Below are positions 8,386 to 59,862 of a stretch of 64,000 bases of DNA, in pieces. The stretch comes from Brachyspira suanatina (GTDB lineage Bacteria > Spirochaetota > Brachyspiria > Brachyspirales > Brachyspiraceae), in the NCBI RefSeq assembly GCF_001049755.1, contig NZ_CVLB01000001.1:186001-250000 (forward strand), in the 5' to 3' direction. The position numbers were made by a program, and so were the translations under genes. Position 1 is the stretch's first letter; the number at the start of each line of letters is the position of its first letter. The notes below the pieces were generated by a model, which saw only the letters and a program-made list of their open reading frames with translations, searched no databases and was not told where the DNA came from.

Positions 8386-8997
8386 ATGAAAAGAATAATT
8401 ATATTAATTTTATCAATTTTTTGTCTCTTTCTGTCAGGCTGTAGTTATCAAGTATTAAATCCAAATAATGATAGCAGTTCAAATTCATCTAATAATAATG
8501 GAAATTCAGGAAATAATAACGGCAATAATAATAGCGGTACTACAAAAACTATGTACTTTAAATTTAAAGTATCAGGTAAATCTTCTTTGAATAAATTTAA
8601 ATATGGAAATGAACATATTTATCCAAAGGAAGTAAGTATAGAAAATTATCAAAATAAAAAAACTTTTTCTTATACAGGTAAATGGGGTGATCCTGGATTT
8701 ATTACTATTTTTTACTTTTGTGATGATAAAATAGGAAATAGTATGAGTATTCCTTTCTATATAGGAGATTCTAAATTATCAGTAGTATATGATGATAAAA
8801 GTAATGAAATAACATATAATGGATATATTTGGATTTTAAATTCTGGAAAGGGATTTTTTAGAAATGATTTCTCTTGTACCATACCTTTAAAAGATTTTGA
8901 TGAATCTAAAAATAATAATACGGCTTTAATATCAATAGTTTTATATCCTGATTCTGATTCATATATTTGTACATTTGACGGTTTTGAAAGTAAATAG
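8386..8997 (+). CDS. Secreted lipoprotein of unknown function
   Basis: 203 residues. A lipoprotein signal peptide ends in the lipobox LSGC (Cys19), so the mature protein is predicted to be lipid-anchored. A low-complexity Asn/Ser/Gly linker (about 25-53) follows, then a ~150-residue domain rich in beta-strand and aromatic residues with no family I recognise. The start is fixed by the signal peptide although no ribosome site is present. The long Asn-rich tether is typical of surface-displayed spirochaete lipoproteins; localisation is inferred. Confidence 0.75.
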   Translation: MKRIIILILSIFCLFLSGCSYQVLNPNNDSSSNSSNNNGNSGNNNGNNNSGTTKTMYFKFKVSGKSSLNKFKYGNEHIYPKEVSIENYQNKKTFSYTGKWGDPGFITIFYFCDDKIGNSMSIPFYIGDSKLSVVYDDKSNEITYNGYIWILNSGKGFFRNDFSCTIPLKDFDESKNNNTALISIVLYPDSDSYICTFDGFESK

Positions 8998-9033
8998 TTA
9001 TAAAATTTGTGTAAATTTTGCAATATTTTTAAT

Positions 9034-9062
9034 TTGATTATATGTAGAAACTACTATATAAT
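9034..9062 (+). promoter_or_regulatory. Promoter of CHAT-amidase unit
   Basis: TTGATT, 17 nt, perfect TATAAT, about 40 nt before the ATG at 9105. Confidence 0.6.
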
Positions 9063-9104
9063 AACTTAAACTAATTAATATAAATTTACTTAAATAATAT
9101 TTTG

Positions 9105-10427
9105 ATGATAGAATATAAATCATATATTGCAACACAAAATAGAGATTACTTTTTATCTCATAATATGGAATATATTACTTTAAAAAACTCCTCTGTAAAA
9201 AAGATTTTAAAAAATACAAAAAAACATGATAGTTTAATAAATATATTTCTATATGATAATGACAAGAATAAATTATATGGGTATTATGAAGTAGATTTTA
9301 ATAATAGAAAACAAATAGATGATAATTATACTAATATAAATATAAGTGATAACTATAAAAGAAGAAGAGGAATATATTATAAATTGGAAGAAAAATATTC
9401 AGATTTTTCAATATACGAAGTAGATTCAAAAACATTTTTAAAATTAAAAGATAGATTAATACTTTTGAATGATAATATATCGCAAACATTTTTTTCTTGT
9501 TCTATAGATAATAATATTTTTAAATACCAAGCTATAGAGACATATCCTTCACTTTATGTAGCAGAGTATGAAAAGCATTTTGATAATAAGGCTTATGAGA
9601 GTATATATAAAGAATATATTCGTTTATCAAAATACTCGAATAGTGAAAATAATAATATAGATAGATATATAGAGCTTGGAAGCTATTTAATGAATATGCT
9701 TATTCCGGAAAAAGATTTCAGAGAACATTTGCTTGACGGATTTAGAATAGTTTATCTTCATCTTGATGATAATACATATACTATTCCTTGGGATATACTT
9801 TCTTTTGATGGAAAATTTTTATCCGAAAATATAATTTTTTCATATAGCAATGCATCTAATGTTTTGCCCAATAAAAAAACTGATAATAAAAAATTAAAAA
9901 TGGCCGTTATTTCAATACCAAATGATGATATTGTATACGATAAACAAGAGATTGATTATATTTTATCATTACAGAATAACATAAAAAATATAGAAATAGA
10001 TTTATATAAAAAAGAGCATAATTATTTTGAGTTTGTTAAAATATTAGAAAGTTATGATATAGTACATATTATAACTCATGGATATAAAGACGGAATAAAA
10101 TTGAGCGAGGATTATATACTAAATTCAGTAACAGCATTACAAAACCCGCCTTCGCTTATTTTTATTAATGCATGCAATATGGAAGAAGCTGATAATAAAC
10201 TTACAAAATCACTTCTTTCTTCAGGGGTAAGTACTGTTATTTCTGGTATTGGTTCTTTGGCTGATGGTATGTATTTAGATTTTATTTATAGTTTTTATAG
10301 TAATTTGCTTCATAAGCATGCCAGAATCAATACTGCACAGGCATATTATTTTGCTTATGTTGAAGTTAAAGAGTTTTATAAAGGGTTTATACGATATAGA
10401 TTTAATGGAGTTCCTGTATATGTTTAA
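9105..10427 (+). CDS. CHAT-domain (caspase-like) protease
   Basis: 440 residues from ATG 9105 (a TTG one codon earlier is also possible). The C-terminal ~200 residues form a CHAT domain: IPWDILSF entry segment, catalytic His325 in IITHG, catalytic Cys357 in FINACN, and the following GVSTVISG strand. The N-terminal ~200 residues match no family I know and carry no signal peptide or TPRs. CHAT proteases are clan CD cysteine peptidases, used in gram-negative cell-death and defence circuits. The 3' end overlaps the amidase start by 8 nt (ATGTTTAA), so the two are translationally coupled. Confidence 0.85.
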   Translation: MIEYKSYIATQNRDYFLSHNMEYITLKNSSVKKILKNTKKHDSLINIFLYDNDKNKLYGYYEVDFNNRKQIDDNYTNINISDNYKRRRGIYYKLEEKYSDFSIYEVDSKTFLKLKDRLILLNDNISQTFFSCSIDNNIFKYQAIETYPSLYVAEYEKHFDNKAYESIYKEYIRLSKYSNSENNNIDRYIELGSYLMNMLIPEKDFREHLLDGFRIVYLHLDDNTYTIPWDILSFDGKFLSENIIFSYSNASNVLPNKKTDNKKLKMAVISIPNDDIVYDKQEIDYILSLQNNIKNIEIDLYKKEHNYFEFVKILESYDIVHIITHGYKDGIKLSEDYILNSVTALQNPPSLIFINACNMEEADNKLTKSLLSSGVSTVISGIGSLADGMYLDFIYSFYSNLLHKHARINTAQAYYFAYVEVKEFYKGFIRYRFNGVPVYV

Positions 10428-11461: not shown

Positions 11462-12142
11462 ATGCTTACTGTTTACATTGCTGCAAGAGATATAGGTAAT
11501 TATAAAGATAATACTGAAAGATTAAAAGAGGTTTTAATTGAAAGCGATATTGTCTTAGTTGAAAGTTTTAGAGAGGCTACTACACTTTTTAAAGCACTTA
11601 ATATAAGTAAAGATAAAGAATGCTTGATAGAGTTTAGCGAACATACAAAAAAATCCAAAGATATTGATGAAATAATTACAAAGATTATAAACTGCCAAAC
11701 TGTTACTCTTATAAGTGATTGCGGCACTCCAATATTAGAGGATCCTGGAAGATTATTACTTGAATATTGTTATGCTCATAATATAAAGGTTCGTCCTATA
11801 GCAGGTGTAAGCAGTGTTACGGCAGCTATTATGTGCCTGCCTTTTAACTTCAAAGAATTTTATTATGCTGGGCTTTTGCCGCGTGATGACAGAGAACGCG
11901 AAAAAAAATTATCATATTTAAAAAGATTAAATGTTCCTGTTATTATATTAGATACTCCTTATAGATTAGGAAAAGTACTTAATGCCATCAAAAAAGTATA
12001 TTCAAAAGATAAAGAAATAGCTTTATGTTTGGATATTACAACTGAAAGCGAAGAAATCATTATAGATAGAGTATCAGATATATTGGCTAAATATCAGGAA
12101 AGCAAAAAAAGAGAATTTGTAATTGTTATAAGCTCATTATAA
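11462..12142 (+). CDS. rsmI: Short RsmI-like SAM methyltransferase
   Basis: 226 residues of the tetrapyrrole-methylase fold. SDCGTPILEDPG corresponds to the RsmI motif SDAGTPxxxDPG, and AGVSSVTAAI matches the PGxSAxxxA motif. RsmI 2'-O-methylates C1402 of 16S rRNA. This protein is about 50 residues shorter than typical RsmI, lacks the C-terminal helical domain, and does not start with the usual substrate-side segment. It is either a compact RsmI or a related methylase. AGGA precedes the ATG, 10 nt after the amidase gene. Confidence 0.75.
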   Translation: MLTVYIAARDIGNYKDNTERLKEVLIESDIVLVESFREATTLFKALNISKDKECLIEFSEHTKKSKDIDEIITKIINCQTVTLISDCGTPILEDPGRLLLEYCYAHNIKVRPIAGVSSVTAAIMCLPFNFKEFYYAGLLPRDDREREKKLSYLKRLNVPVIILDTPYRLGKVLNAIKKVYSKDKEIALCLDITTESEEIIIDRVSDILAKYQESKKREFVIVISSL

Positions 12143-12149
12143 TTTTTAA

Positions 12150-46135: not shown

Positions 46136-46600
46136 TTATTTATCTATTTTCATAGCTTCTTTATCAACTAAAAATAAACCTAAATCACCAGAGCAAGCTA
46201 ATTTATCATTAACTTTTACTTCCCCATGAGTTTTAAGTAGATTATTACTGAATGCTTCAACAGTAACAAACATATCCATAACATCTCCAGGTATTACAGG
46301 ATTTTTAAACTTAACATTATCTATTTTAGCAAAGAACATGAATTTTTTATCATATTCATCAGGCTTTAAAATTTTTGTATAGCAATAAATACCAGAAGTC
46401 TGAGCTAATGCTTCAATCATTAAAACACCAGGCATAATAGGACTTTCTGGAAAATGTCCTGTAAATTGAGGTTCATTAAAAGTTACATTTTTTATTGCAT
46501 GTATTTTTCCTTCTTCAACGCTTTCTACTCTATCAACTAGTAAGAAAGGGTATCTATGAGGTAATAATTCCATTATTTTATTTATATTAATTTTTTCCAT
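46136..46600 (-). CDS. fabZ: 3-hydroxyacyl-ACP dehydratase FabZ
   Basis: 154 residues, hotdog fold. LLPHRYPFLLVDRV start and the active-site segment FTGHFPESPIMPGVLMIEALAQ with catalytic His and Glu. Leads the operon fabZ-lpxA-lpxB-GHKL, a common pairing that supplies and uses hydroxyacyl-ACP. Confidence 0.96.
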   Translation of the reverse strand: MEKININKIMELLPHRYPFLLVDRVESVEEGKIHAIKNVTFNEPQFTGHFPESPIMPGVLMIEALAQTSGIYCYTKILKPDEYDKKFMFFAKIDNVKFKNPVIPGDVMDMFVTVEAFSNNLLKTHGEVKVNDKLACSGDLGLFLVDKEAMKIDK

Positions 46601-46651
46601 TTTCTAATTAATCCTTAAATTAAGTATTAAAAGTATATTATATAGAATTTT

Positions 46652-46679
46652 ATTATATCATATAATAGTAAAGTTACAA
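46652..46679 (-). promoter_or_regulatory. Promoter of fabZ-lpxA-lpxB
   Basis: TTGTAA, 16 nt, TATAAT on the minus strand. Confidence 0.5.
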
Positions 46680-46889
46680 GCATAAAAATAAGTTTAAAAT
46701 CTTAATGGATATAGTTTTATGTATTTAAAATAAAAAATGATTCTAAATTATAAGAATACCTTATAAAAGATCATTTTAATGTACTTTTAATCTAGCTTTC
46801 CTATATCACAATAAAAAATCTTTTCATTACTACTGGCTATAAAAATATTATAACTTTAGTTATAATATTTTTGTCATTTATATCTTTAT

Positions 46890-47466
46890 CTCTCAATTTT
46901 TCAGTATAAAAGTATTTAATATCGTTCATATTTTCGTATATTTTTCATACAATAGTCTTTTATATTCATTATCATTTATTAAATCATTTTTATTTATATC
47001 AAATAATTCTATAAAAGATTTAATATATTATATTGAATCTTTTTATTCCGTACTTTTGTATTATTTAGTAGCAAGTGAATCAGCTTATTTTTATCTAAAA
47101 CAGGATATGAACCTAGACTTTCTTATGAATTTTAATTTATAAAACATTTTATTATGCTTCCTAACATGTGTTAATTCATGTTCAATTGCAAATGGAAAAC
47201 ATTTCTGATCTTCAAATGTATCGTATACAAATATTGTTTTATAATATAATAAATCTGTTCCGCATACAGGCATGGATCTAAAAATACATGGTATAAATTA
47301 TTTAGTTCCATATCAATTTTTGATGAAAAATAATTTGATGGATTAGAAGCATCTTTAAAAGTAGCTTTTATTATATTGTCTTTTGTTTATTCTTTATTAG
47401 AAGTTATTAAATCATTTTGAGATAATAAATTTTTTATTTTTCTATTTCTAAATCTAAATAATTCAT
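46890..47466 (-). pseudogene. Remnant of a zinc metallopeptidase gene
   Basis: Fragments in several reverse frames look coding but are broken by stops and shifts. The longest, 47273-47091, contains FAIEHELTHVRKHN, an HExxH zinc site followed by a charged stretch as in M56/M48-type peptidases. Upstream fragments include NPSNYFSSKIDMELNNLY; a downstream one includes NDLINDNEYKRLLYEKY. At least two stops and two frameshifts separate them. It opens the decayed border of the accessory island. Confidence 0.5.
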
Positions 47467-47673
47467 TTTTATATTTTTTTATTAATTAATATTTACTCTT
47501 ATTATATTTTATCAAAATTTATATATGTTTAGTAAATAAATATAAATCTAATCCTATTTATACATAGTATTATAAAATTCAACATTAACTATATGGGTAA
47601 CATCAATACTTTATTTTAAATAAAATATAATCTCGTTTTCCTACATTACCAATAAAAAAATCTCGCCAAAATG

Positions 47674-47710
47674 TGCTGACAACTAAAGTTATCAGCACCT
47701 CAATTTTTTA
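47674..47710 (+). terminator. Hairpin with T-tract (terminator or small RNA end)
   Basis: GTGCTGACAAC pairs with GTTATCAGCAC (one mismatch in 11) over a 4-nt loop, followed by CTCAATTTTTT. It occurs once; it is not a CRISPR array. Confidence 0.5.
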
Positions 47711-47910
47711 TAGTAGAATTGCACATACTGAGTAGGGTATCGAGAAAGCTTTTTTAAGACTTTATAAACTCTTCACATTAATATGTATTTTACATCTTAA
47801 TGTCAAAGAACTTGTTCTCAGTATAATACATTTTTTTGTTTTGCAAATTATATTGTATGTTTATATTAAATAAAAATTCTTCTAAAATTGTATATTTATA
47901 ATGTATATTA

Positions 47911-47938
47911 TTGATTTTATAATTTTTATTTATATACT
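47911..47938 (+). promoter_or_regulatory. Promoter of the dual-HEPN gene
   Basis: TTGATT, 16 nt, TATACT, about 32 nt before the ATG at 47970. Confidence 0.45.
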
Positions 47939-47969
47939 AAAATTATTATATGTAAATTGTGGAGATAAT

Positions 47970-50801
47970 ATGTCAGTTCATAAAATTCCATATATTAAAG
48001 ATATTTATTATTTTATAAGAGATGGTAAAAGTAGTTATAAAGTAAAAAATTATTAACTATACTAACAACATTTATATATAGAAAATAGTGCATTTAATAA
48101 AGATTCTAATAATGAAAAAAAGTTGGAAGAAAAAATTAGTAAGTCAATATATAGAACACAATTTGAAACTGTATTTAAATTAAAATATTCAAAATTGGAA
48201 TGTGCAAGATTAAAATGTGCTAAATTAAATTCCAAAGATTGCTAGTATGTGATAAAAGAGAAAAAGATAAAGAAGATAAAAAAAGATAATTTTTATAGAG
48301 AGGATAAAGAGAATTTACAAAAAGTTATAGATACTTCATATCAACAAGCTATTTGTTTTATTATGGATTTTAGAAATATTCTTATACATAAAAATGTAAG
48401 AAATGATCACTTTGATCATTGTCAATTTAAAGAATTTAATGGAGAATTGTTTAATTTCCTTAAATTATGTTTGGATAATGAAATAAATTTAAATGCTCGA
48501 TATATAGAAAAGATTAAAAATGAGAATCCAGAACTATCTTTACAAAAATATAAAGACAAAGATTTATATATAAAAGAAGCATTAAATGTAGACTTTTCTG
48601 AAATGGAAACTTCATTCAAAAATGTGCCTTTTGTATATGCTTTAATGATTATCTCCATGTTTACAGAAAAAAAGAATATCAAAGAAATATTGGATTTAAT
48701 AAAATTGAGAGCTTATATTAAGGAATTGATTTTATCCTTTTCATTAAGAGTAGGATATAAAACTCTTGTACCGAGCGTAGAATTTGATGATGATAAACTT
48801 TATTTAAATCAAATAAAATTAAAAGAGAAATTTAATAGTGAAGTATTCAATGAATTTGGAAGAATAAAGAAAACTATAAAAGATTTTGCAGATGAATCTA
48901 ATACCGACAATAAAACTAATGATTTGGAAGATATTATAAGAAATGATAAAGCAAATAAATTGATAGAAATAAAAAAAGATAAAATAGATAAAAATGAAAA
49001 GATCAATGAAAAAATAAAAGAAAAGGAAAAAATAGAAAATTCTAAAGAAGAAATAGAAAGATCTTTAATCAATGTATTTAGAAATGAAGATATATTTATG
49101 AAAGAGGCTTTAAATTTTACTACTGAATATGGTAAATTAGGAAATTTAAAAAGCTCTTTTTTTGAAGATACTTGGTCTATAGTTGGAAATGCTGCTATAT
49201 GGGCAGTACCTATCTATAAAATAGTTTATAATGATATTGAGAAGAAAAATATAGATATGATAAAATACAGTATTAATAAATATAATCTTACAGCTTTACT
49301 TACATATATAATGATCTCTGATGATGTAATATTTTATAATTTACAGCAGACAGCATCATTTTCTTATATAAAAAAAGAATGTAAAAATGATAATAAAAAA
49401 TACAAAGTAATATTATTAGAATATATTTTAAAGGAAAAAGTAAGTAAATATAGTGTATATCAAAAAACTAAATTTTGTGTAAGAGTTATAAGAAGGAAAA
49501 TAGTTAAAAATCAGCATATACATCAAAGAGACAGCATTGTTTTTCATGAAAAGTTAATGATGATTATATCAAAACTCTATAAGGTTAATAATAATATTTC
49601 TTATGGGGCAATTAAAAAAGTGTTTGATTTTGTTCATATAAATATTCCTAAACATATGGAAGATATATTAAAAATAAAAACTCTTGATGGTATTACAGAT
49701 GAGCGCATAAAACTTACTGTGAAATTTGCAGAGAATAAGAAAAATATAGAAAAGAAGCCTAAAGATGAAACTAATGTTTTATATAAAAGTTGGAGTAAAT
49801 ATGCTTTTTCTCCTAATTATTCTATGAACAAAGATAAAAATGACTATTATAAAGACACAGATGATAGAATTTATAAGGCTTTGAGATGGGATAATATAAA
49901 AGAAAATTTGTTTTCAAAAGAATTTGATGATTATAAAACTGGAAAATATGATTTATTATCTATATTATTAAAATATTTCAAAACTAAAAATTATACTATC
50001 CCTGTAATTGTTAGTTTTTATGAGGAATATAAATATAAAAATAAAATAAAAAAATTTAGAGATAATGAAATAAGAAATATATTCTCTCAGGAGATGGTTC
50101 TTGCATTAATTTCTCAGAAATATTCTAATTTGATTGTACATAAAAATAAAAAACTAGGAAAAAATGTACCTATTATTTTTCAGTATAATAAAAATGGTAA
50201 AGGTATTTTTGATTTAGTTTGTATATTAAAAACACATATTAGAATTAATATTAGAGATTACTATAAAAAAGATGTTAGAAATGCATTGGAATGGCTTCTT
50301 GATCCGCAAATAATAAATAAATCATCAATGAAAAAAGAGGATTTGTATCTTTCCATATCTAATTCTATAGAGGCATTTAATATTATAGTTCAAGATAATG
50401 TTTTGAAAAAATTTATTAATCCTACAATTAGTGAATTAAAAGAAGGAGAAGAATTAGATAGAGTAAAAGTTAAAGAGTTGGTTTGTATATTGATGTGGGC
50501 TGCTAAAGAGTTTTTATATTTTGTATGTGCTATATGGTTGCATTTAATTTATAAATGTCATAAAGCCGATGGGATTAAATATATAATAACAAAAAATGGA
50601 TATGTAGAGTTCGAAGATTTAGTCGATTTTAATAATAATAAAATGACTCCAAATATAGGAGAACTATAAAAGATGTCAGGAATATGATTTATCATATGAG
50701 AGAAAGACTATGCGTATAAAACTGCAATTGATTATAAGAGAAATGTATTGAAAGTTTTAGGACTAAAAGATATTTATAAATCTTATAATGATATAAGTTA
50801 A
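47970..50801 (+). pseudogene. Interrupted dual-HEPN (Cas13-like) gene, full ancestral extent
   Basis: The ancestral reading frame seems to run 944 codons from the ATG at 47970 (GGAGA upstream) to the TAA at 50799-50801, next to the ribosome site of the following gene. The same frame (frame 0) is used at both ends. It is broken by TAA at 48054, TAA at 48063 and TAG at 48243. Near 50640-50669 it shifts to another frame, which reads IKDVRNMIYHMRE. It then returns to frame 0 and reads KDYAYKTAIDYKRNVLKVLG to the final stop. Thus a second RNxxxH HEPN motif sits at about residues 903-908, and the first, RNILIH, at 135-140. This spacing matches Cas13b-like effectors. Confidence 0.6.
48249..50669 (+). 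CDS. Long open part of the Cas13-like HEPN protein (806 codons)
   Basis: Open from a GTG at 48249, without a ribosome site, to TAA at 50667. R42-N-I-L-I-H47 (RNILIH) is a full HEPN RNase motif in a helical context. Residues 131-151 (ALMIISMFTEKKNIKEILDLI) recall the SLFLEKKEI..FL segment after HEPN1 in Cas13b. IRNIFSQEMVLALISQK (about 608-624) recalls the IRxxKxQDxxLxxMA segment before HEPN2. A Lys/Glu-rich coiled coil lies at ~215-275. RNALEW at 677 lacks the His. These are remembered family patterns, not alignments. Other HEPN RNase families, such as Abi-type, are alternatives. Confidence 0.45.
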   Translation: MIKEKKIKKIKKDNFYREDKENLQKVIDTSYQQAICFIMDFRNILIHKNVRNDHFDHCQFKEFNGELFNFLKLCLDNEINLNARYIEKIKNENPELSLQKYKDKDLYIKEALNVDFSEMETSFKNVPFVYALMIISMFTEKKNIKEILDLIKLRAYIKELILSFSLRVGYKTLVPSVEFDDDKLYLNQIKLKEKFNSEVFNEFGRIKKTIKDFADESNTDNKTNDLEDIIRNDKANKLIEIKKDKIDKNEKINEKIKEKEKIENSKEEIERSLINVFRNEDIFMKEALNFTTEYGKLGNLKSSFFEDTWSIVGNAAIWAVPIYKIVYNDIEKKNIDMIKYSINKYNLTALLTYIMISDDVIFYNLQQTASFSYIKKECKNDNKKYKVILLEYILKEKVSKYSVYQKTKFCVRVIRRKIVKNQHIHQRDSIVFHEKLMMIISKLYKVNNNISYGAIKKVFDFVHINIPKHMEDILKIKTLDGITDERIKLTVKFAENKKNIEKKPKDETNVLYKSWSKYAFSPNYSMNKDKNDYYKDTDDRIYKALRWDNIKENLFSKEFDDYKTGKYDLLSILLKYFKTKNYTIPVIVSFYEEYKYKNKIKKFRDNEIRNIFSQEMVLALISQKYSNLIVHKNKKLGKNVPIIFQYNKNGKGIFDLVCILKTHIRINIRDYYKKDVRNALEWLLDPQIINKSSMKKEDLYLSISNSIEAFNIIVQDNVLKKFINPTISELKEGEELDRVKVKELVCILMWAAKEFLYFVCAIWLHLIYKCHKADGIKYIITKNGYVEFEDLVDFNNNKMTPNIGEL

Positions 50802-50811
50802 AGGAGTAATA

Positions 50812-53457
50812 ATGCTAAAGAATAATACAAATATCATAACTTTTAAAGATGTTTTTAATGGATTAGGTAATAATTATAAAGAAAACTTAATTGAATTAAT
50901 TAATAGTATCAATAATGATTATATAAAAAGTAAAATTTCTATCAAAGAAGAAAAGGAAGAAAATATTTTTAACTATAATATAGCTAATCTTAATAATAAT
51001 GAGATTACTTATATAAAAAATTATATAAATCTATGTTTAAATAATTGTAATGATATAAAAGATGCATCTTTTGTGAGGCAGTATATAGATAAAGTTTTTA
51101 AATTTAAGATAAAAAATAATAATGAAGATTTTCCATTTTTATATTTGCTTTTATTGTTGAAATTATATTCTGATGATTATAAAAGTTTATATATATTTAT
51201 GAACAATATTGGGATATATTATGATATTATCAAATTGATATTTTTTGATATAGAAGTATATGATATTTATATAGATGAAAGTGGTAATATAGATTATGAT
51301 AAGGAAGAAAAAAAACTTTTTGTTGTAGGAGGGTATTATACTAAAAATATTAGATATGATGATTGGGAAAAGGAAACTAAAGCAGAATTAAAAAGACTTT
51401 CAGAAAAATATTCAATTGATGATAATATTATATATCATAGAACAAAAATAGAAGATTTTAATGTTAGAAAATCAATAACAAAAGAAATTTTTAATTTTAT
51501 AAAAGAAAATAAAGGAAAATTTGTATGTATATATGAAAATAAGCCAAATGGTATTGAGTTTACAAAGCAGTATTATTTAGATTTAGTTTCAAAATTAATA
51601 GTTAATACATTAAAGAAAATTTTATCAGATGAAGAGCTAGATTTTGATTCTAAGAAAATACTTCTCATTATACATATTGCTAAGAGAGGAGATAAAGATA
51701 ACAATGCTTTAGACATATATAATTTTGGAGGTGTTAAGAAGTTTTTGAATTATATTGTTGATAATAAAATAGAGATTGATAAAATAGTTGAAGAATGGGA
51801 ATCTCATAATGAAGAATACTTTCAAGAAGTTACTAATGTACCTAAATCCGATATAAAATCAAAAGTTTATGAAAGTATAGAAGAATGGAAAATAAAATAT
51901 TCAGTTACAGATAAAAATATAAATTATGAATTATCCAATCCTTCTGATGCACTAAAAGACAGCACATTAGTTTTTGCTGATTATTTTTGCAATACTTTTT
52001 ATAACCGCAGCGGTTCAGATTCTAAAGAAATATTTAAAGATTTTGATATATATTTGCAAATTAAGTATAGTTTTTTAGATAAAGATACTATTGATTTTTA
52101 TTTTTATAAATATGACTATTATACAATATTAAACAGATATATTTTTTATAAGAAGTTAATAAATCAAGAAAATATAACTAAAAGGACAAAAGATTTTGCT
52201 GAAAATGGCAGTAAAGAAATATTGCAGTTTTTTAAGAAAGATAATTTAAAGAGAAGAGTAAATTATTTAGTTCATGCTGTAAAAAGTATATTAGATAATT
52301 TAGAAATAGAGTCTAATAATGAGTTTAAATATGATAATATATTGGGAAGCTGTGATATATTAATAGATTTGCTCGAAAAAATAAAACAAGATAATTCAAA
52401 TGATTTTGTATTAAGAAAAATTTATTCTATGATATTTATGATTAATACTGCTAAACTTTCTGTTTATAATCATAGTGATAATACAGAAAAATCTTTGGAA
52501 ATGGTTAAAACAAATATAGATTATATAAATAATATAGATAATGATAATTTCTTTTTTAGAGAAAAGATACTTTTTGATAATATCAGTACAGTCGCTCAAT
52601 GGGATTTTTATGAATGTGATTATATTATAAAATATATAAAAAAAGTTTTGGAAGACATTAAGTGTTATGAAAAATTATATATAGATGATATAGCAAGATT
52701 ATACGGTACGCTTGGACAGACATATATTATTCATTATTATGTTACAGAAAATACTAAAGATTTAGATAAAGCTAAAGAGTGTTTTTTTGAATCTAAAAAG
52801 TTATTTAAAGATGATAAAGGAAATACAAGCAGAACATATAGTAATTTAATGCTTTATGCTATAACATCAGGTATGGAAGATGAATTTTTAGATTATCTTT
52901 ATAAATATATTACAGAAAAAGAAGAAAGTTTTGATAATATTGATTTGTTAATTGAAAAATTAGTTTCTTATATAGATAATAATAATCAGCCTGATAAAAG
53001 CGATAAATATTTAATAATAAGGCTATTAAGATATTGCAAAAATTTTGATACAGAATATAGTAAAAAAATAGCTAATATACTTATAGAAAAAAGCAGTAAT
53101 TTCTATGATGATAAAAAAAGAAAAGAATCTTCAGAGGATGTTGATATAGAAAAAGATTATTGTTTTGTTTACTATAAAATAAAGAAAGAAAAAATTTCTT
53201 TGTCAAATAGTTATATATTTGTAGAAAATTTACAAGGATATTTCCAGTATATGAGAAAATTATCTTTATATTTAACAGAGATTTTAACAGGAGATGAAAG
53301 CTATTTTGATAAAGCTGTAGATATATTAGAAGAAATGGTTAATATGCAAGATACTAATTATAAAAAAGCATTTGGAAAGTTTTTTGAAGAAAGTGCTAAA
53401 CCTAATTTAGATAAATATAAATGGGCTTATAATTTAAGTAAAAAATTATATATGTGA
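50812..53457 (+). CDS. DUF3800 (RNase H-like) protein with helical repeat C terminus
   Basis: 881 residues, AAAGGAG before the ATG and only 10 nt after the ancestral stop of the HEPN gene. Residues ~150-410 match DUF3800: IYIDESGNIDYD with Asp155/Glu156, FVVGGYYT, and the late LVFADYF with Asp390 that completes an RNase H-fold acidic site. The N-terminal 150 and C-terminal ~440 residues are helical; the latter has TPR-like pairs. DUF3800 proteins occur in mobile and defence loci with no defined activity. No signal peptide or membrane segment. Confidence 0.75.
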   Translation: MLKNNTNIITFKDVFNGLGNNYKENLIELINSINNDYIKSKISIKEEKEENIFNYNIANLNNNEITYIKNYINLCLNNCNDIKDASFVRQYIDKVFKFKIKNNNEDFPFLYLLLLLKLYSDDYKSLYIFMNNIGIYYDIIKLIFFDIEVYDIYIDESGNIDYDKEEKKLFVVGGYYTKNIRYDDWEKETKAELKRLSEKYSIDDNIIYHRTKIEDFNVRKSITKEIFNFIKENKGKFVCIYENKPNGIEFTKQYYLDLVSKLIVNTLKKILSDEELDFDSKKILLIIHIAKRGDKDNNALDIYNFGGVKKFLNYIVDNKIEIDKIVEEWESHNEEYFQEVTNVPKSDIKSKVYESIEEWKIKYSVTDKNINYELSNPSDALKDSTLVFADYFCNTFYNRSGSDSKEIFKDFDIYLQIKYSFLDKDTIDFYFYKYDYYTILNRYIFYKKLINQENITKRTKDFAENGSKEILQFFKKDNLKRRVNYLVHAVKSILDNLEIESNNEFKYDNILGSCDILIDLLEKIKQDNSNDFVLRKIYSMIFMINTAKLSVYNHSDNTEKSLEMVKTNIDYINNIDNDNFFFREKILFDNISTVAQWDFYECDYIIKYIKKVLEDIKCYEKLYIDDIARLYGTLGQTYIIHYYVTENTKDLDKAKECFFESKKLFKDDKGNTSRTYSNLMLYAITSGMEDEFLDYLYKYITEKEESFDNIDLLIEKLVSYIDNNNQPDKSDKYLIIRLLRYCKNFDTEYSKKIANILIEKSSNFYDDKKRKESSEDVDIEKDYCFVYYKIKKEKISLSNSYIFVENLQGYFQYMRKLSLYLTEILTGDESYFDKAVDILEEMVNMQDTNYKKAFGKFFEESAKPNLDKYKWAYNLSKKLYM

Positions 53458-53520
53458 TATTTTTTATAGAAAATAATTTGACTTATTAAAAAAACTTTAT
53501 ATAATAGAGATATATCATTT

Positions 53521-53541
53521 CTCTGGTATTTAGTCCCAGAG
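53521..53541 (+). terminator. Terminator after the DUF3800 gene
   Basis: CTCTGG/CCAGAG stem with a 9-nt loop, followed by TTTATTTATTATTTTTTT. Confidence 0.7.
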
Positions 53542-53852
53542 TTTATTTATTATTTTTTTGACTTTGTTTTTAGGCTTTTTGCTTATAAACAGTATTTTGG
53601 AATTAAATGTAATTATATTTAATTCTGTTTATTTTTTAATTTTTATATAAAAGTAATAATTTAAACTTTAATGGGCTAAGTATATCTAGTAAAAAATTAT
53701 TTATTACAGTTTTAACTCCATTAAAATTTGTTATTATTGCTTAGCTATAATTATGCATTTAATATATAGTATATTTTTTACATTATAAGTATTATTTTTT
53801 TATTAAAGTTAATTTTTTTATAGTTTTTTTTAATAATTTATAAATATTATAC

Positions 53853-53880
53853 TTGATATATTTTGTGAATATGCTATTAT
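53853..53880 (+). promoter_or_regulatory. Promoter of the small-peptide/helicase unit
   Basis: TTGATA, 16 nt, TATTAT. It is the first promoter-like site after the terminator. Confidence 0.4.
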
Positions 53881-54050
53881 TAGTTCATAAAATAAAAATA
53901 TTTAGCTACTGCTAAAGTTTGAAAATATCATTTTTTTATGAATTTGTTTCTTCTATTAATTAGGTAGAAACGGTATTTGTGATTAGGTAATTTCTTAATT
54001 ACAGTTTGATTGTTTACTGATATTTTTAATTAAACTTAAAGGAGCTAAAT

Positions 54051-54269
54051 ATGTCTATTAACTTTTTTTCTAATAAAAGTAATCTCAATACTACTTATTA
54101 TATAGTGAGTAGTCTATTAATTTGTAACAACACTATTGGTCCTATATTAAAAATAAATAAAAATGTAGAAAAATCTTTTTCAAAGAAGAAATCCATAGAA
54201 AAAAACAAATTTTTCATACTATCAAAAAATCATAACATCAAATTTATGGATAAAGTATTTCTAATATAG
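54051..54269 (+). CDS. Small basic protein of unknown function
   Basis: 72 residues with a strong AAAGGAG ribosome site 7 nt before the ATG. A short hydrophobic stretch (YYIVSSLLIC, residues 16-25) is followed by a Lys/Asn-rich half (KKKSIEKNK). No family recognised. Because of the good ribosome site and the structured leader I consider it probably translated; it could also be a leader peptide. Confidence 0.4.
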   Translation: MSINFFSNKSNLNTTYYIVSSLLICNNTIGPILKINKNVEKSFSKKKSIEKNKFFILSKNHNIKFMDKVFLI

Positions 54270-54481
54270 TGCATCATTTTTTTAAAGTTTTAAATGTTTG
54301 TGTATTTTAATTAATTTATTAATTTATGCATACATTAAGGTGTTTTCATAAAAGGAGTTTGTTAGGTATAAAAAATTATTATTAGTGTCATTTTTAGTAT
54401 AGCTAAATTTGTTATTACCTATTTTATAAAGAAAAATAGATAATAAGTTTACAAGCAATGCTCGCATATTTTTATTAGTAA

Positions 54482-54497
54482 TTTATGCCGGCATAAA
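54482..54497. promoter_or_regulatory. 16-bp perfect palindrome, possible operator
   Basis: TTTATGCCGGCATAAA is its own reverse complement, 24 nt before the ATG at 54522. It is GC-rich in the centre, against a very AT-rich background. Confidence 0.4.
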
Positions 54498-54521
54498 GAA
54501 ATCTATAAAAGGAGAGCAGCT

Positions 54522-54611
54522 ATGAGTAATCCTGTATTAATAGTAAAATTAATTAAAATGGCAGTGGAAGTATTAGAAGAATATTTACTCGGTAAAGATG
54601 GAAATAAGTAA
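54522..54611 (+). CDS. 29-residue amphipathic peptide
   Basis: MSNPVLIVKLIKMAVEVLEE begins a 29-residue peptide ending GKDGNK. AAAGGAG precedes the ATG at good spacing. The first ~24 residues form an amphipathic or hydrophobic helix. No cleavable signal. Similar in size to type I toxins and phenol-soluble-modulin-like peptides, without detectable identity. Confidence 0.45.
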   Translation: MSNPVLIVKLIKMAVEVLEEYLLGKDGNK

Positions 54612-54628
54612 ATTAAGGAGGTCTTATA

Positions 54629-54721
54629 ATGTTTCTAAAAAATATCATATTAGGTTTAGTCCCTGTTGTATTAAGTATTATAGCAGAGGAAGTATTAAAA
54701 ACAGTTATTAAAAGATCCTAA
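54629..54721 (+). CDS. 30-residue hydrophobic peptide
   Basis: MFLKNIILGLVPVVLSIIAE starts a 30-residue peptide ending KRS. A near-perfect TTAAGGAGGT ribosome site lies 6 nt before the ATG. A ~20-residue hydrophobic helix is flanked by Lys residues. It lies 17 nt after the 29-residue gene, so the two may act as a pair. Confidence 0.45.
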   Translation: MFLKNIILGLVPVVLSIIAEEVLKTVIKRS

Positions 54722-54815
54722 GTTTGTAAGCGTGCCTGCATATCTTTTTAAGGTCTGCGCATATTAAGGAAGAAAATGATTATTAATTTATTATTTTTTA
54801 GGAGTTTAATTTAAT

Positions 54816-56795
54816 ATGATTGATAAAATAAATTATAACAAAACAAATTTAAAAAATATAAGTAGTAAAAATATGGATTATATTGGAAATGATGAATTTA
54901 TATCAGAGTTAAATTTGAATAAATACAAAAGTGCTTCAGATGAAAAAATAGACATTAATAATCAATATTCAAATTCTATTTCAAATGCAAATAGTAAGAA
55001 ATATAGTATGAAGCGTGAAGTATTAGATAACAGAATTGATAATTATGATGATGAAATAAATAATACTATTACTAGAAAAGATGGAGGGCTAAAGGAAACA
55101 AGCGTATTGAATGAACAGGGTAATGTTTCCGAAACCCATCATAAAGAAACATTCAATATAGATTCAGCAGCTCAGGGAAGAGAAAATAAAACTCATGCTG
55201 AAAAAACAAAATATGGAGATCCAACTACTGATATAAGGGTTACAGATGGGGATAATACAAAAGATTATCAATTAAAATATGAAAAAGATCCTAAGTCAAA
55301 TGTAGACTCTCTTTCAAATCCTAAATATTCAGGTGGCGATAAAGTTGCACCTTCAGATCAGGTTGATGATATAAAAAGAATAGCATCAAATAAAACTAAT
55401 ACAGAAAATAAAGACTATGCACATACTAGTGAAAATACATACGATAGAATTTCAAGTGAAGACGGTAAAGTTAATAGTGATCCATTGACAAGAGATGAAG
55501 CTATTGAATTAACAGAAAAAGCAAGAAAAGGAGAGAAAATAGAATATAAATATGCTGATGAAAAAAGAAATATACAATTTCGTAATCAATTACTAAAATC
55601 AACGTTATTAGGAGGAGCTTTCGCGGCAGGCGGTGCTTTATTTGGTGAAATAATGAAGTTGATTGACAATGGAGGTAATTTAACAGAAGATGAGTTTATA
55701 CAAGGATTTTTTAATGTTGTTAGTGCTGGTGTAGATGGAGCTTCTAAAAGTGCACTTGCTGTTAGTCTTCACTATTTAGGAAAAAATATAGGTTCTTCTA
55801 TACTTTCAAATCCTTATGTAGGAGGAGGAATTGCAGTTGTTACTATAGATACATTAAAGAGCCTTTATAAATTTGCTATAGGTCAAATTAATGATATAGA
55901 ACTTATTGGAGATGTATCAAAAAATATAATTCAAACTACAACAACTTCTGTAGGAGCTTTTGCAGGTTCCACTTTAGCTTCTTCAATTTCATCATTAGTA
56001 ATTTCTAATATGACTATGAGTGCGGCCGCTGCAGCAACATTTAGTACTATAGCAACAGTTGTAGGTTCTGTTCTTGGAGGTTTGGCTTTTGGTTTGACAA
56101 CTGCCTATCTTATAGATTTAGATTCCAAAGCAGGCATTGAAATAGCAAAAAGAGATATAGAAGAAGCATACGAAGAATTTAAGAAAGATAAAAATTTATA
56201 CCAATTAGTTGATAAAATAGGAACACAAAAAGATTGGGAATTCAGTATTAAAAGTTTGATTCTATTTGGAGGTACATTTGCTCAGATAAGTGAATGCTGT
56301 ACTAGGAGTCAGGGACTTAAAAATATATCATCTCATTTAGATAAACAGTACAGTTATATAGATGAGGCAGAGAGAAGGGCTATAAATAATATAAAAGAAA
56401 AAGCAGCTATTATTGAAGATGATATGAAGCAGAAATTTTATGCTAATGTAAAGCATATGTTTCAAAATGATGTTGTTGAACTTCATAATGACTTAATGAA
56501 TTTTTTAAATGCAAAAAGAAATATATTGGCTTTAAATGAGAAGAAATATATTAATGAACTCAAATGTATAGATGAAGATAATGCAGCTTTACAGGAAAGA
56601 GCTTACAGAGATGAGCTATTTTATGATGAAGTTAATAATTTGATAGAGATGATAGAAAAATCTGATATTGAAGTTAAAGAAAATATTATAGGGGTATTGG
56701 CATATATAGCTTCAGAAAAATTTTCTGAGAATTTGAATTCTGATATAAGAGATTTTTATGAACTATTAATTGAAGATAATATAATAAATATTTGA
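54816..56795 (+). CDS. Membrane protein with nuclease-like N-terminal motif
   Basis: 659 residues. Residues 1-90 are Asn/Lys-rich. A conserved-looking block follows: HHKETFN (108-114), THAEK (126-130), TDIRV (138-142) and YQLKY (151-155), where D139...Q152-x-K154 resembles the PD-(D/E)xK site. SNPKYSGG...APSDQ comes next. Residues ~258-433 are Gly/Ala/Ser-rich hydrophobic helices (LLGGAFAAGGALFG, VGSVLGGLAFG), probably membrane-inserted. The C-terminal 220 residues are helical with charged coiled coil. It leads a four-gene operon ending in a helicase. No signal peptide. Confidence 0.55.
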   Translation: MIDKINYNKTNLKNISSKNMDYIGNDEFISELNLNKYKSASDEKIDINNQYSNSISNANSKKYSMKREVLDNRIDNYDDEINNTITRKDGGLKETSVLNEQGNVSETHHKETFNIDSAAQGRENKTHAEKTKYGDPTTDIRVTDGDNTKDYQLKYEKDPKSNVDSLSNPKYSGGDKVAPSDQVDDIKRIASNKTNTENKDYAHTSENTYDRISSEDGKVNSDPLTRDEAIELTEKARKGEKIEYKYADEKRNIQFRNQLLKSTLLGGAFAAGGALFGEIMKLIDNGGNLTEDEFIQGFFNVVSAGVDGASKSALAVSLHYLGKNIGSSILSNPYVGGGIAVVTIDTLKSLYKFAIGQINDIELIGDVSKNIIQTTTTSVGAFAGSTLASSISSLVISNMTMSAAAAATFSTIATVVGSVLGGLAFGLTTAYLIDLDSKAGIEIAKRDIEEAYEEFKKDKNLYQLVDKIGTQKDWEFSIKSLILFGGTFAQISECCTRSQGLKNISSHLDKQYSYIDEAERRAINNIKEKAAIIEDDMKQKFYANVKHMFQNDVVELHNDLMNFLNAKRNILALNEKKYINELKCIDEDNAALQERAYRDELFYDEVNNLIEMIEKSDIEVKENIIGVLAYIASEKFSENLNSDIRDFYELLIEDNIINI

Positions 56796-56830
56796 TTTAT
56801 ATATTTTATAAAAATAAATAGGAGTTAAAT

Positions 56831-57952
56831 ATGATTATAGATTTTTTATTAAATATAATGTGTAAGAAAAAATTAGAAAAACAAAGAGAAAAACTCAAAT
56901 TAAAAATAGCTGATCTTGAGAATTATAGGGATAGAGCTATACAAAGAGTTAATGAAGTTAAAGAGTATTATAATCAAAGATTGAATGATGTATTTGAGCA
57001 TTTGTCAAAGTTAGAAATTAATATCAAAAATAATTTTTATAAGATTGTGCATGATGAACTAATTGAAGTTTCTAATATAGTAAAACAGTCTTATGAAATA
57101 GTATTTCATATGATTGATTTAGATTGGCAGATAAAAATTTTAACATCAAGAAAGAATAATAAGAAAACAGAAATCACTATTCGTAAAAGAAGTAAAGATG
57201 AAGCTGTTAAAATTTTAAAAATATTATTTTCTTCTTACAAAAAAGATGCAAGGCTAAAATGGTTTAATGAAGTTAATGATAATAATATAAAATGCATAGA
57301 AGAATTAAATAAATTAAAAACAGAGGACAATAGTGAAGATATAAATATACTTATAGATCTATGTGAAAGAGATTTGATAAACCGCGATCATATAGTAACA
57401 ATAAAAAAATATATAAATACTGAGGATAAAATATTAAATATGCTTTTAAAAGATGTGGATTCTCTTAATGAGCAAATAAAAAATATAAAAAATAAAGCCA
57501 TTGATTGTTATATGAGATACAGAGAATTACAAAATCAATATTATGATTTATATAATAGACAAATTGATGATAATAAAATACTTCCTGGTTATCAAGCATT
57601 AATTCAACAAAAGGATCAATTAAAAATTATAAAAGGGAATTCGTATAAGAAAGCAGATGATTTCAGCAAGGATTTAAAAAATAGATGCATCAATAGAGAG
57701 AAGATAGTAAATTATGAGGATCTTAAATATGAGGAGAAAAAATTATGGGATAATTATAAAGACTATAAAGTATTATTTAAAGACTCTAATGATAATGTTA
57801 ATTATTACTATGAAACAATAAAATTTCTTATAGAAGAGCGAAAGAAAAGCATTAAGGAGCTTTATACAAAATCTATAATTACACTTAAGCAGGTTAATGA
57901 AATGGGTATAACTTATTATAAAAATAATAATTCTGATATAAAGGAGAATTAA
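56831..57952 (+). CDS. Coiled-coil protein
   Basis: 373 residues, almost wholly helical. Lys/Glu-rich heptads run at ~12-70 and ~205-245, with a Tyr-rich segment (YRELQNQYYDLYNRQ) near 230. The N-terminal MIIDFLLNIM is hydrophobic and may attach to the membrane or to the neighbouring membrane protein. No known domain. AGGAG precedes it, 36 nt after the membrane-protein gene and 3 nt before the next. Confidence 0.6.
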   Translation: MIIDFLLNIMCKKKLEKQREKLKLKIADLENYRDRAIQRVNEVKEYYNQRLNDVFEHLSKLEINIKNNFYKIVHDELIEVSNIVKQSYEIVFHMIDLDWQIKILTSRKNNKKTEITIRKRSKDEAVKILKILFSSYKKDARLKWFNEVNDNNIKCIEELNKLKTEDNSEDINILIDLCERDLINRDHIVTIKKYINTEDKILNMLLKDVDSLNEQIKNIKNKAIDCYMRYRELQNQYYDLYNRQIDDNKILPGYQALIQQKDQLKIIKGNSYKKADDFSKDLKNRCINREKIVNYEDLKYEEKKLWDNYKDYKVLFKDSNDNVNYYYETIKFLIEERKKSIKELYTKSIITLKQVNEMGITYYKNNNSDIKEN

Positions 57953-57955
57953 TAT

Positions 57956-58333
57956 ATGATGTATAAAATTAAAGTAAAAAGTAAATATTTAACAGGAATA
58001 AATAAAATGATAATTTGGGTTTTGAACAATGATTATCATAGACCTAAGGATATATTTAATATATTAAAAATATTTTACAGTAATACTTTAAAAATATATA
58101 TACAGAATATGCTTGAGTTAAATTTATTATGCATAAAAAAAGTTAATGGTATAGGAGGCATATATGTAAATAAGAATTTTGATGGGGAGTATTTTTATTT
58201 AAATATTGAAGATGATAGTATAAATTTGAATAGTTTGGACAAAAAAGAAAAATGCAAAATAATAAAAAATAATTTGATTAATAAAAGTACTATAAAGGCA
58301 TTAAGCTTAAAAAATATATCAGTTTGTTATTAA
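57956..58333 (+). CDS. Small winged-helix-like protein
   Basis: 125 residues (an adjacent ATG at 57959 is equally good). Residues ~12-65 (INKMIIWVLNN, RPKDIFNILKIF, LKIYIQNMLELNLLCIKKV) look like a winged helix-turn-helix with a recognition helix and wing, then a beta-rich and helical tail. It might regulate the operon or act as an adaptor for the helicase. The assignment is from pattern only. Its stop overlaps the helicase ribosome site. Confidence 0.5.
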   Translation: MMYKIKVKSKYLTGINKMIIWVLNNDYHRPKDIFNILKIFYSNTLKIYIQNMLELNLLCIKKVNGIGGIYVNKNFDGEYFYLNIEDDSINLNSLDKKEKCKIIKNNLINKSTIKALSLKNISVCY

Positions 58334-58344
58334 AGGAGATTATT

Positions 58345-59862
58345 ATGACATTTTTAGAATATTTATCAGCTTGGAAAAATTATTTGAATGTATTATCTGA
58401 TACTATGATAGATGATAAATTACGTATAAAATATTTAAGGCAGATAGAATATATAAAAAAAATAGAGTATGGAATTTTTATGGATGCAAAACTCTTTCAA
58501 ACTTTGAAAAGAACTTATGATAACAATATTGTATCTGAATCAAAAAAGGAAAATAATATTCATATTGATCCAATACAAGATATATATAAAAAAGGAAGTG
58601 GTGTATTTAATATTATAGAGAAAGCAATAAACAGCAAGAAATTATTTTGTTTAATGGGTCCTCCTGGTACAGGAAAAACTACAGCAATTGCTGAGATAAT
58701 ATTACAAACTATGAAAATGAATAGTAAATCTAAAATAGCTATATGCTCTGAAACACATATTGCAGTTGATAATGCTATAGAAAAATTGATATATGAATGC
58801 TGTAAAAGAAAATTGAATTATTCTATTATGAGATATGAAGAGTTTAAAGATAAGAGTGATAATTTGGCATATAATGTTTGCTATAATAATTATATAGATC
58901 ATTGGAAAAAATATGTAGCTTCTAGTTATGATAAAAAGTTTTGTGAGAATTTATTTTTTGAGTTTGAAAGAAATATAGGAAATAAAAAGAGAAATCATAA
59001 GTATATTTGTGATAATGTAAGTATATTAGGTATTACATGCAATCAAATTGGAAGATTTAAAATAGAAGAAACTGATGAGGCTTATGATTTAGTTATTATT
59101 GATGAAGTATCTAAAAATACTTTACCTGAAATTTTAATGCCTGCTTCTTTTGCTAAAAAGGTAATATTAGTTGGGGATCCTAATCAACTTCCTCCTGTAT
59201 TTTGCCGTAATGAAATAGAAACTATGAATGAAATAGATATTAATTTGCAAGAAACATTAATAGAAAATTCTTTAGTTGATAGATTATTTAAGAATTCTGA
59301 TAGAGATACAATGTTCGGTATGCTGGATACTCAATATAGAATGGAAGCAAAGATAGGTGATATTGTAAGCAGATTTTTTTATAATGGAGAATTAAAAAAT
59401 GCTACAGCATATTGTGATGATGAAAGTATATATTGGATAGATTATCATACAAATGAAAAATTTCCTAATAATTATAGAGGGGAATTATATAATCCTATAG
59501 AAATAGATTTAATAAATAATAGTATTGAAAACTTAAATACTAATGCAAATACATCTATAGCAATAATAACACCATATAAGAAACAAAAGTATGAAATTAG
59601 AAAAAAAATAAAAAATAATGAAAATCTGAAGCATTTAAATATAAAAATAGATACAATAGATGCTTTTCAGGGTAAAGAAGCTGATATAGTTTATTTTAGC
59701 GTTGTTAGAAATACAGGTTCTGCAAAATTCTTTTCTAATATAAAAAGACTTAATGTAGCAATATCAAGAGCAAAAAACAGATTGTATATGGTTGGTATGT
59801 CTAAGTATTGTAATAAGGTAGATATATTGAAAAATATTTATTCATTCTCAAAAGTGTGTTAA
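58345..59862 (+). CDS. SF1 helicase of Upf1/DNA2 type
   Basis: 505 residues from the ATG at 58345, which has AAAGGAG before it; a frame from 58324 overlaps the previous gene. Motif I GPPGTGKTT, Ia CSETHIAVDNA, II VIIDEVS (DEVS in place of DEAS), III GDPNQLPP, IV DTQYRM, V DAFQGKEADIV and VI NVAISRAKNRLY are all present. It is a compact helicase without fused nuclease or zinc domains; the N-terminal ~100 residues are helical. Upf1-like helicases unwind RNA or DNA 5' to 3'. It closes the operon. Confidence 0.85.
   Translation: MTFLEYLSAWKNYLNVLSDTMIDDKLRIKYLRQIEYIKKIEYGIFMDAKLFQTLKRTYDNNIVSESKKENNIHIDPIQDIYKKGSGVFNIIEKAINSKKLFCLMGPPGTGKTTAIAEIILQTMKMNSKSKIAICSETHIAVDNAIEKLIYECCKRKLNYSIMRYEEFKDKSDNLAYNVCYNNYIDHWKKYVASSYDKKFCENLFFEFERNIGNKKRNHKYICDNVSILGITCNQIGRFKIEETDEAYDLVIIDEVSKNTLPEILMPASFAKKVILVGDPNQLPPVFCRNEIETMNEIDINLQETLIENSLVDRLFKNSDRDTMFGMLDTQYRMEAKIGDIVSRFFYNGELKNATAYCDDESIYWIDYHTNEKFPNNYRGELYNPIEIDLINNSIENLNTNANTSIAIITPYKKQKYEIRKKIKNNENLKHLNIKIDTIDAFQGKEADIVYFSVVRNTGSAKFFSNIKRLNVAISRAKNRLYMVGMSKYCNKVDILKNIYSFSKVC

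Follow-up and report, generated by a model that had tools for sequence, protein, structure and literature searches.

An open DUF3800-TPR reading frame in a dead CRISPR-Cas13 locus of Brachyspira suanatina and its paired counterparts in other spirochaetes

Cas13 enzymes of several subtypes are guided by crRNA and cleave RNA indiscriminately upon binding of a target RNA; Cas13a, for example, cuts tRNA (as described in PMC11042736). The closest described relative of the locus studied here is subtype VI-F, which the main text of Makarova et al. 2025 (PMC12669027) presents as restricted to Brachyspira, with a gene of the DUF3800 family in some of its loci; what the accessory does is not stated there. 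A TPR-DUF3800 protein has also been described beside Cas12a2, in subtype V-A2, with a suggested role in interference or in crRNA biogenesis or degradation (Altae-Tran et al. 2023, PMC10910872). As portrayed there, it likewise joins DUF3800 and TPR parts beside a class 2 effector, sometimes with a helicase nearby. In subtype VI-B, the genes for Csx27 and Csx28 likewise lie beside Cas13 and may strengthen its response.

Here we analyze a stretch of 64,000 nucleotides of the Brachyspira suanatina genome (hereafter the window; contig NZ_CVLB01000001.1, positions 186,001 to 250,000). Its gene at 50812-53457 is almost certainly the DUF3800-TPR accessory of a subtype VI-F CRISPR-Cas13 locus, a frame that survived the decay of Cas13 and of the array; the VI-F name is taken from the genus and the DUF3800 partner, the effector having been matched through the Cas13gr13 profile and not the Cas13f profile. 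With published VI-F loci the window has in common the genus, a Cas13 whose HEPN motifs lie towards its two ends and an adjoining DUF3800 gene, and in its relatives the array and cas1-cas2 are likewise present. It differs in that the window copy is decayed, and a homologous pair is found here outside Brachyspira as well, in genome G099. The V-A2 effector is Cas12a2, not Cas13, and that system is likened by description, not by sequence. The Brachyspira proteins have a variable extra N-terminal region ahead of DUF3800, absent in G099, whereas the V-A2 text names TPR and DUF3800. Csx28 is a membrane pore, in contrast to the window gene, whose product is of DUF3800-TPR type and has candidate residues for nuclease activity.

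A decayed locus with one open reading frame

The HEPN gene upstream of the accessory is a Cas13. Its longest open piece (48249-50669) matches the PADLOC profile Cas13gr13 nearly end to end (E = 1.5e-143), as well as Cas13 N- and C-terminal profiles. The pseudogene of VI-F type spans 47970-50801 on the + strand. Six stops interrupt its frame, each end is frameshifted and, relative to genome G118, two internal deletions have removed 26 and 21 codons. Given six stops and two deletions, its decay goes beyond a single sequencing error. The HEPN1 catalytic motif RNILIH (RxxxxH; 48372-48389, + strand) is intact, and the HEPN2 motif RNMIYH (50678-50695, + strand) follows the stop at 50667-50669 and is no longer in frame; two RxxxxH motifs in one readable protein are found in intact relatives but not in the window.

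Upstream, at 47630-47746 on the + strand, stands a single mutated VI-F repeat, with halves of 17 and 16 nt and an 84-nt palindromic insert in the loop, at a site that holds a CRISPR array in two homologous loci (L033 and L035). The window contains no spacers, the intact repeat pattern has no match in the whole genome, and no Cas1 was found anywhere in that genome. With Cas13 reduced to a pseudogene and every spacer gone, the window copy is incapable of CRISPR immunity. This is a dead type VI locus, and the DUF3800 gene is its one intact reading frame. A search for DUF3800-linked ncRNA motifs gave no Rfam family at the gathering score in seven homologous loci and just two sub-threshold chance matches in the window (46500-54900).

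The accessory gene (50812-53457, + strand) encodes 881 aa from an ATG preceded by AAAGGAG at 5 nt. Comparison with an intact relative by tblastn places the ancestral end of Cas13 at about 50801, with the TAA at 50799-50801, leaving the gap of 10 nt claimed in the initial annotation; in intact relatives the gap is 5, 9 or 14 nt. The spacing, the common strand and the absence of a terminator-like site on the + strand suggest that the two genes would be co-transcribed. Selective retention of the accessory after the death of Cas13 was considered and is not supported: dN/dS against the closest relative is 0.43 for DUF3800 and 0.375 for Cas13, both slightly higher than in other pairs.

Membership in the DUF3800 family is based on the motif, one score over threshold and published naming. 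In the genome search the Pfam family (PF12686) matches 51265-51735 on the + strand with 27.8 bits against a curated cut-off of 21; hmmscan run on that protein gives no hit, and the G099 homologue scores 17.4 bits. The DESG motif at residues 155-158 (51274-51285, + strand) provides the candidate acidic catalytic residues D155/E156 and lies in a block with a profile match to canonical DUF3800; profile comparison with the canonical Brachyspira proteins aligns just this DESG...GG block. Alignment further reveals an invariant His-Arg at 209-210 (51436-51441, + strand), candidate active-site or RNA-contact residues, and an Ala-Asp at 389-390 (51976-51981, + strand), the probable counterpart of the canonical QLAD motif. 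D155, E156, G158, H209-R210 and A389-D390 are invariant in 7/7 aligned homologues, down to 25% identity. Stand-alone Brachyspira DUF3800 proteins (L043-L046, 360-387 aa) likewise have a block of DESGN type and, close to the C-terminus, an Asp motif that reads QLAD in three of them; they differ in having no TPR region, and none lies beside Cas13 in the loci examined.

The initial annotation had read both the DESG and the AD motif correctly, and the long helical repeats that it described agree with a TPR-like C-terminal region at residues 485-863 (52264-53400, + strand), which in a weak model is helical and matches TPR domains. AlphaFold models from 3 and 2 sequences have mean pLDDT values of 50 and 43, which is low confidence, and the strand-helix order predicted near residues 148-242 is at most compatible with an RNase H fold. 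The top matches in structure comparison are TPR domains (Z 13.7, rmsd 12.1, 290 aligned; Z 13.2, rmsd 6.3, 235 aligned), with Z up to 13.7 being close to chance level for helical models. No RNase H match is listed in this comparison, which covered mainly the helical part and is not counter-evidence to the fold. Pfam TPR_8 appears in one homologue with E 8.2, and the solved structures include no sequence relative of this Cas13 or of the DUF3800 protein.

Intact loci and a pair beyond the genus

The genome carrying the window has a close relative in B. hampsonii 30446. Across Brachyspira relatives the intact order is CRISPR array, cas1-cas2 (in three relatives), Cas13 and DUF3800 gene, and the loci sit between fabZ and alcohol dehydrogenase, as in the window, or at other places. 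Array, cas1, cas2, Cas13 and DUF3800 occur together in L034 and L035/L036; L040 has cas1-cas2-Cas13-DUF3800, with no array repeat in the stretch examined. In L034, L035 and L040 an intact Cas13 (about 1000 aa) is preceded by Cas2 and by Cas1, which scores E about 1e-86 in the two loci scanned, and the Cas13 proteins of relatives match Cas13gr13 with E from 1.7e-200 to 0. The DUF3800 gene follows Cas13 by 5-14 nt in L033, L034 and L040, while in G093 and G022 a further gene intervenes and 2-3 kb separate the two. Genome G167 (L035/L036) has them on separate contigs: its Cas13 reaches the contig end, and its DUF3800 piece begins mid-gene at a contig edge and also has a frame break. Arrays with spacers are present in L033, L034, L035, L038 and L088; the VI-F repeat reads ATCCCGCTTTCCTACAT-loop-AGTAGGGTATCGAGAC, and spacers measure 28-30 nt. 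Two spacers compared with viral contigs gave no exact match, and those contigs contain no relative of this Cas13 or of the DUF3800 protein; the latter has no relative in phages or plasmids either.

A gene-neighbourhood survey, suggested in the initial annotation, does associate the accessory with the HEPN (Cas13) gene. Among 26 Brachyspira genomes, DUF3800-TPR is present in 7/8 with this Cas13 and in 1/18 without it (Fisher p = 9e-5, or 3e-4 leaving out the window's own genome; the genomes are not independent). Distances between the Cas13 proteins and between the DUF3800 proteins correlate with r = 0.90, over pairs that are likewise non-independent. Genome G065 has a DUF3800 remnant only. The sole carrier without Cas13, G155, has an intact homologue of 1161 aa with extra N-terminal sequence (L039:5228-8710) at a locus with no Cas13 match and no repeats; the same locus in G093 has Cas13 and arrays. 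Conversely, G034 has this Cas13 and an array-like repeat tract with no DUF3800 homologue, from which it follows that the accessory is not essential. In that genome the array-like repeats ahead of the intact Cas13 (L041:7500-8250) vary strongly in sequence, and the array looks degenerate.

Of the two-gene HEPN and DUF3800 immune module first proposed, the linkage to a HEPN RNase gene within one immune locus stands. It is not a separate two-gene system: Cas13 is the HEPN gene, and where the locus is intact it forms a type VI CRISPR-Cas with an array and, in three relatives, cas1-cas2. Nor is the combination, first called unusual, without precedent: a 2025 paper (PMC12669027) describes DUF3800 at VI-F loci.

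When 393 spirochaete genomes were searched by profile, one further high-significance homologue of each protein came up (E 1.7e-26 and 1.3e-131), both in G099, a member of another spirochaete family whose assembly is 89% complete with 1% contamination. There (L088:5788-12400) the Brachyspira order is reversed: the DUF3800-TPR gene (672 aa) immediately precedes Cas13 (996 aa), and the pair is flanked by arrays of a 36-nt repeat. This Cas13 matches Cas13gr13 with E 5.4e-145 and has the motifs RNMLMH and RNMLAH; the candidate catalytic residues of DUF3800 are conserved as far as this genome. Such a Cas13 is found in 0/12 relatives from the order of G099. We consider the reversed-order pair the best evidence that the two genes may form a functional pair.

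A four-gene cassette at 54816-59862 (proteins of 659, 373 and 125 aa and an SF1 helicase of 512 aa matching PADLOC MkoA, E 7.5e-96) follows the Cas13 locus in several species. It was considered as a part of the Cas13 system and is treated as independent because genomes that lack Cas13 can also carry the first of its genes; it is possibly a separate defence system. Two tiny open reading frames just upstream of it, 54522-54611 (29 aa) and 54629-54721 (30 aa, hydrophobic), each stand behind a ribosome-binding-like site.

Divergence of the accessory and inserts in the repeats

Between G123 and G118, Cas13 is 95% identical with dS 0.08, under the 0.21 of the neighbouring lpxB, and a probable transfer of Cas13 between species follows from this difference. 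The DUF3800 gene of the same two genomes has two parts, the first ~430 codons with dS of about 0.4-0.8 and the helical remainder with 0.04-0.27. L034:6172-8841 and L033:10505-13234 are 41-55% identical in the N-terminal and nuclease half and 89% in the helical half, beside Cas13 genes 95% identical, a contrast that points to recombination inside the DUF3800 gene. Between G093 and G022 Cas13 is 93% identical and DUF3800 53%, the G022 copy of DUF3800 being broken. The N-terminal part also varies in length, and the proteins range from 672 to 1161 aa. In these few genomes the accessory thus appears to be exchanged and diversified while Cas13 barely changes, which would suit an interference-side or phage-facing role more than a fixed processing role.

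The repeats themselves range in length between 35 and 126 nt, and one array can mix short copies (35-36 nt) with expanded ones. Their hairpin loops contain inserts, mostly palindromic and some 21 to 103 nt long, with the outer stem kept. Inserts occur in Brachyspira and also, with unrelated sequence, in G099; insert-bearing repeats lie at L034:13175-15352, L035:6563-7511, L033:6861-7226, L038:4818-5064 and 8938-9116, in L037 (reverse), at L088:5788-6247 and 11669-12143, and at 47630-47746 of the window. The window insert at 47651-47709 (contig 233651-233709) belongs to a dispersed palindromic element family with 14 other copies in the same genome and members in 18/29 genomes searched. Its presence in CRISPR repeats may reflect the arrival of a small mobile or REP-like element.

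A proposed role beside activated Cas13

DUF3800-TPR accompanies two unrelated effectors, Cas13 of VI-F and Cas12a2, of which Cas12a2 is also RNA-triggered. On the most economical reading, it would act in or after the RNA-triggered step. The best explanation overall, which we hold to be slightly more probable than not, is an accessory of VI-F Cas13 that serves as nuclease or regulator together with the target-activated effector. Its basis is the observed co-location, order, spacing, conserved motifs, co-occurrence and decay. At intact loci, crRNA-guided Cas13 would recognise phage RNA, and the HEPN domains of the target-bound enzyme would start collateral RNA cleavage. The TPR-like region may keep the DUF3800 protein near Cas13 or its products, and the protein would then be a second nuclease with an RNase H-like site made up of D155/E156, an acidic residue near 242 and D390; as an alternative within the same proposal, it would regulate Cas13 and make the response stronger or broader. 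We give this mechanism, a second nuclease or Cas13 regulator acting after target recognition, an even chance; the RNase H chemistry, the contact with Cas13 and the order of activation are what we infer. Since DUF3800 is intact in the window and in G155 with no working Cas13 beside it, it is probably harmless alone, as would be expected of a protein that needs activation.

The same harmlessness after array loss could mark a processing enzyme. A DUF3800 protein acting in crRNA biogenesis or turnover would trim or degrade the long loop-expanded VI-F repeats and make no post-recognition attack on phage or host RNA; such a crRNA role has been proposed for the TPR-DUF3800 protein linked to Cas12a2 (Altae-Tran 2023, PMC10910872), and repeats stretched to as much as 126 nt by loop inserts could require an extra nuclease. 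A processing enzyme should stay conserved with the repeat, yet the 93% identity of Cas13 between G093 and G022 stands against 53% for DUF3800, and G034 has repeats and lacks DUF3800, leaving a crRNA role rather unlikely. Less likely still, in our view, is a gene able to function by itself, as an autonomous defence gene or as a regulator (a Cas13 brake, for example), and tied to Cas13 by position only. The intact 1161-aa homologue of G155, at a locus without Cas13 match or repeat, and the open frame beside a dead Cas13 in the window agree with that idea; the strong co-occurrence (7/8 vs 1/18), the recurrence of the pair in another family and a dN/dS of DUF3800 in the window that does not fall below the value for the dead Cas13 (0.43 vs 0.375) speak against it. 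That the gene is a passenger in a defence island with no functional tie to Cas13 is very improbable: the cassette that follows (54816-59862) is found with or without Cas13, so island neighbours need not cooperate, but same-strand gaps of 5-14 nt in four loci, the same co-occurrence and a pair retained with reversed order in another family all argue for a tie.

Going beyond the preferred reading of a nuclease or regulator with target-activated Cas13, DUF3800-TPR might be an exchangeable, fast-changing subunit of unrelated RNA-triggered effectors (Cas13 of VI-F and Cas12a2). Its variable N-terminal and nuclease part would be swapped between strains, with Cas13 staying almost constant, because what it recognises or destroys is something phages keep changing, and it would be able to persist as a defence gene in its own right once the effector is lost. 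We regard this broader idea as doubtful.

New here are the Cas13-DUF3800 pair outside Brachyspira, the allele exchange and the repeat loop inserts, which the main texts of PMC12669027 and PMC10910872 do not mention. In the window, decay has taken away effector and memory and left the accessory frame open, and a reading as HEPN plus nuclease can conceal a dead CRISPR locus. Subtype VI-F is among the least studied Cas13 systems, and we know of no experiment on any VI-F system. Conserved over two spirochaete families with its gene order reversed, the pair is a good experimental target.
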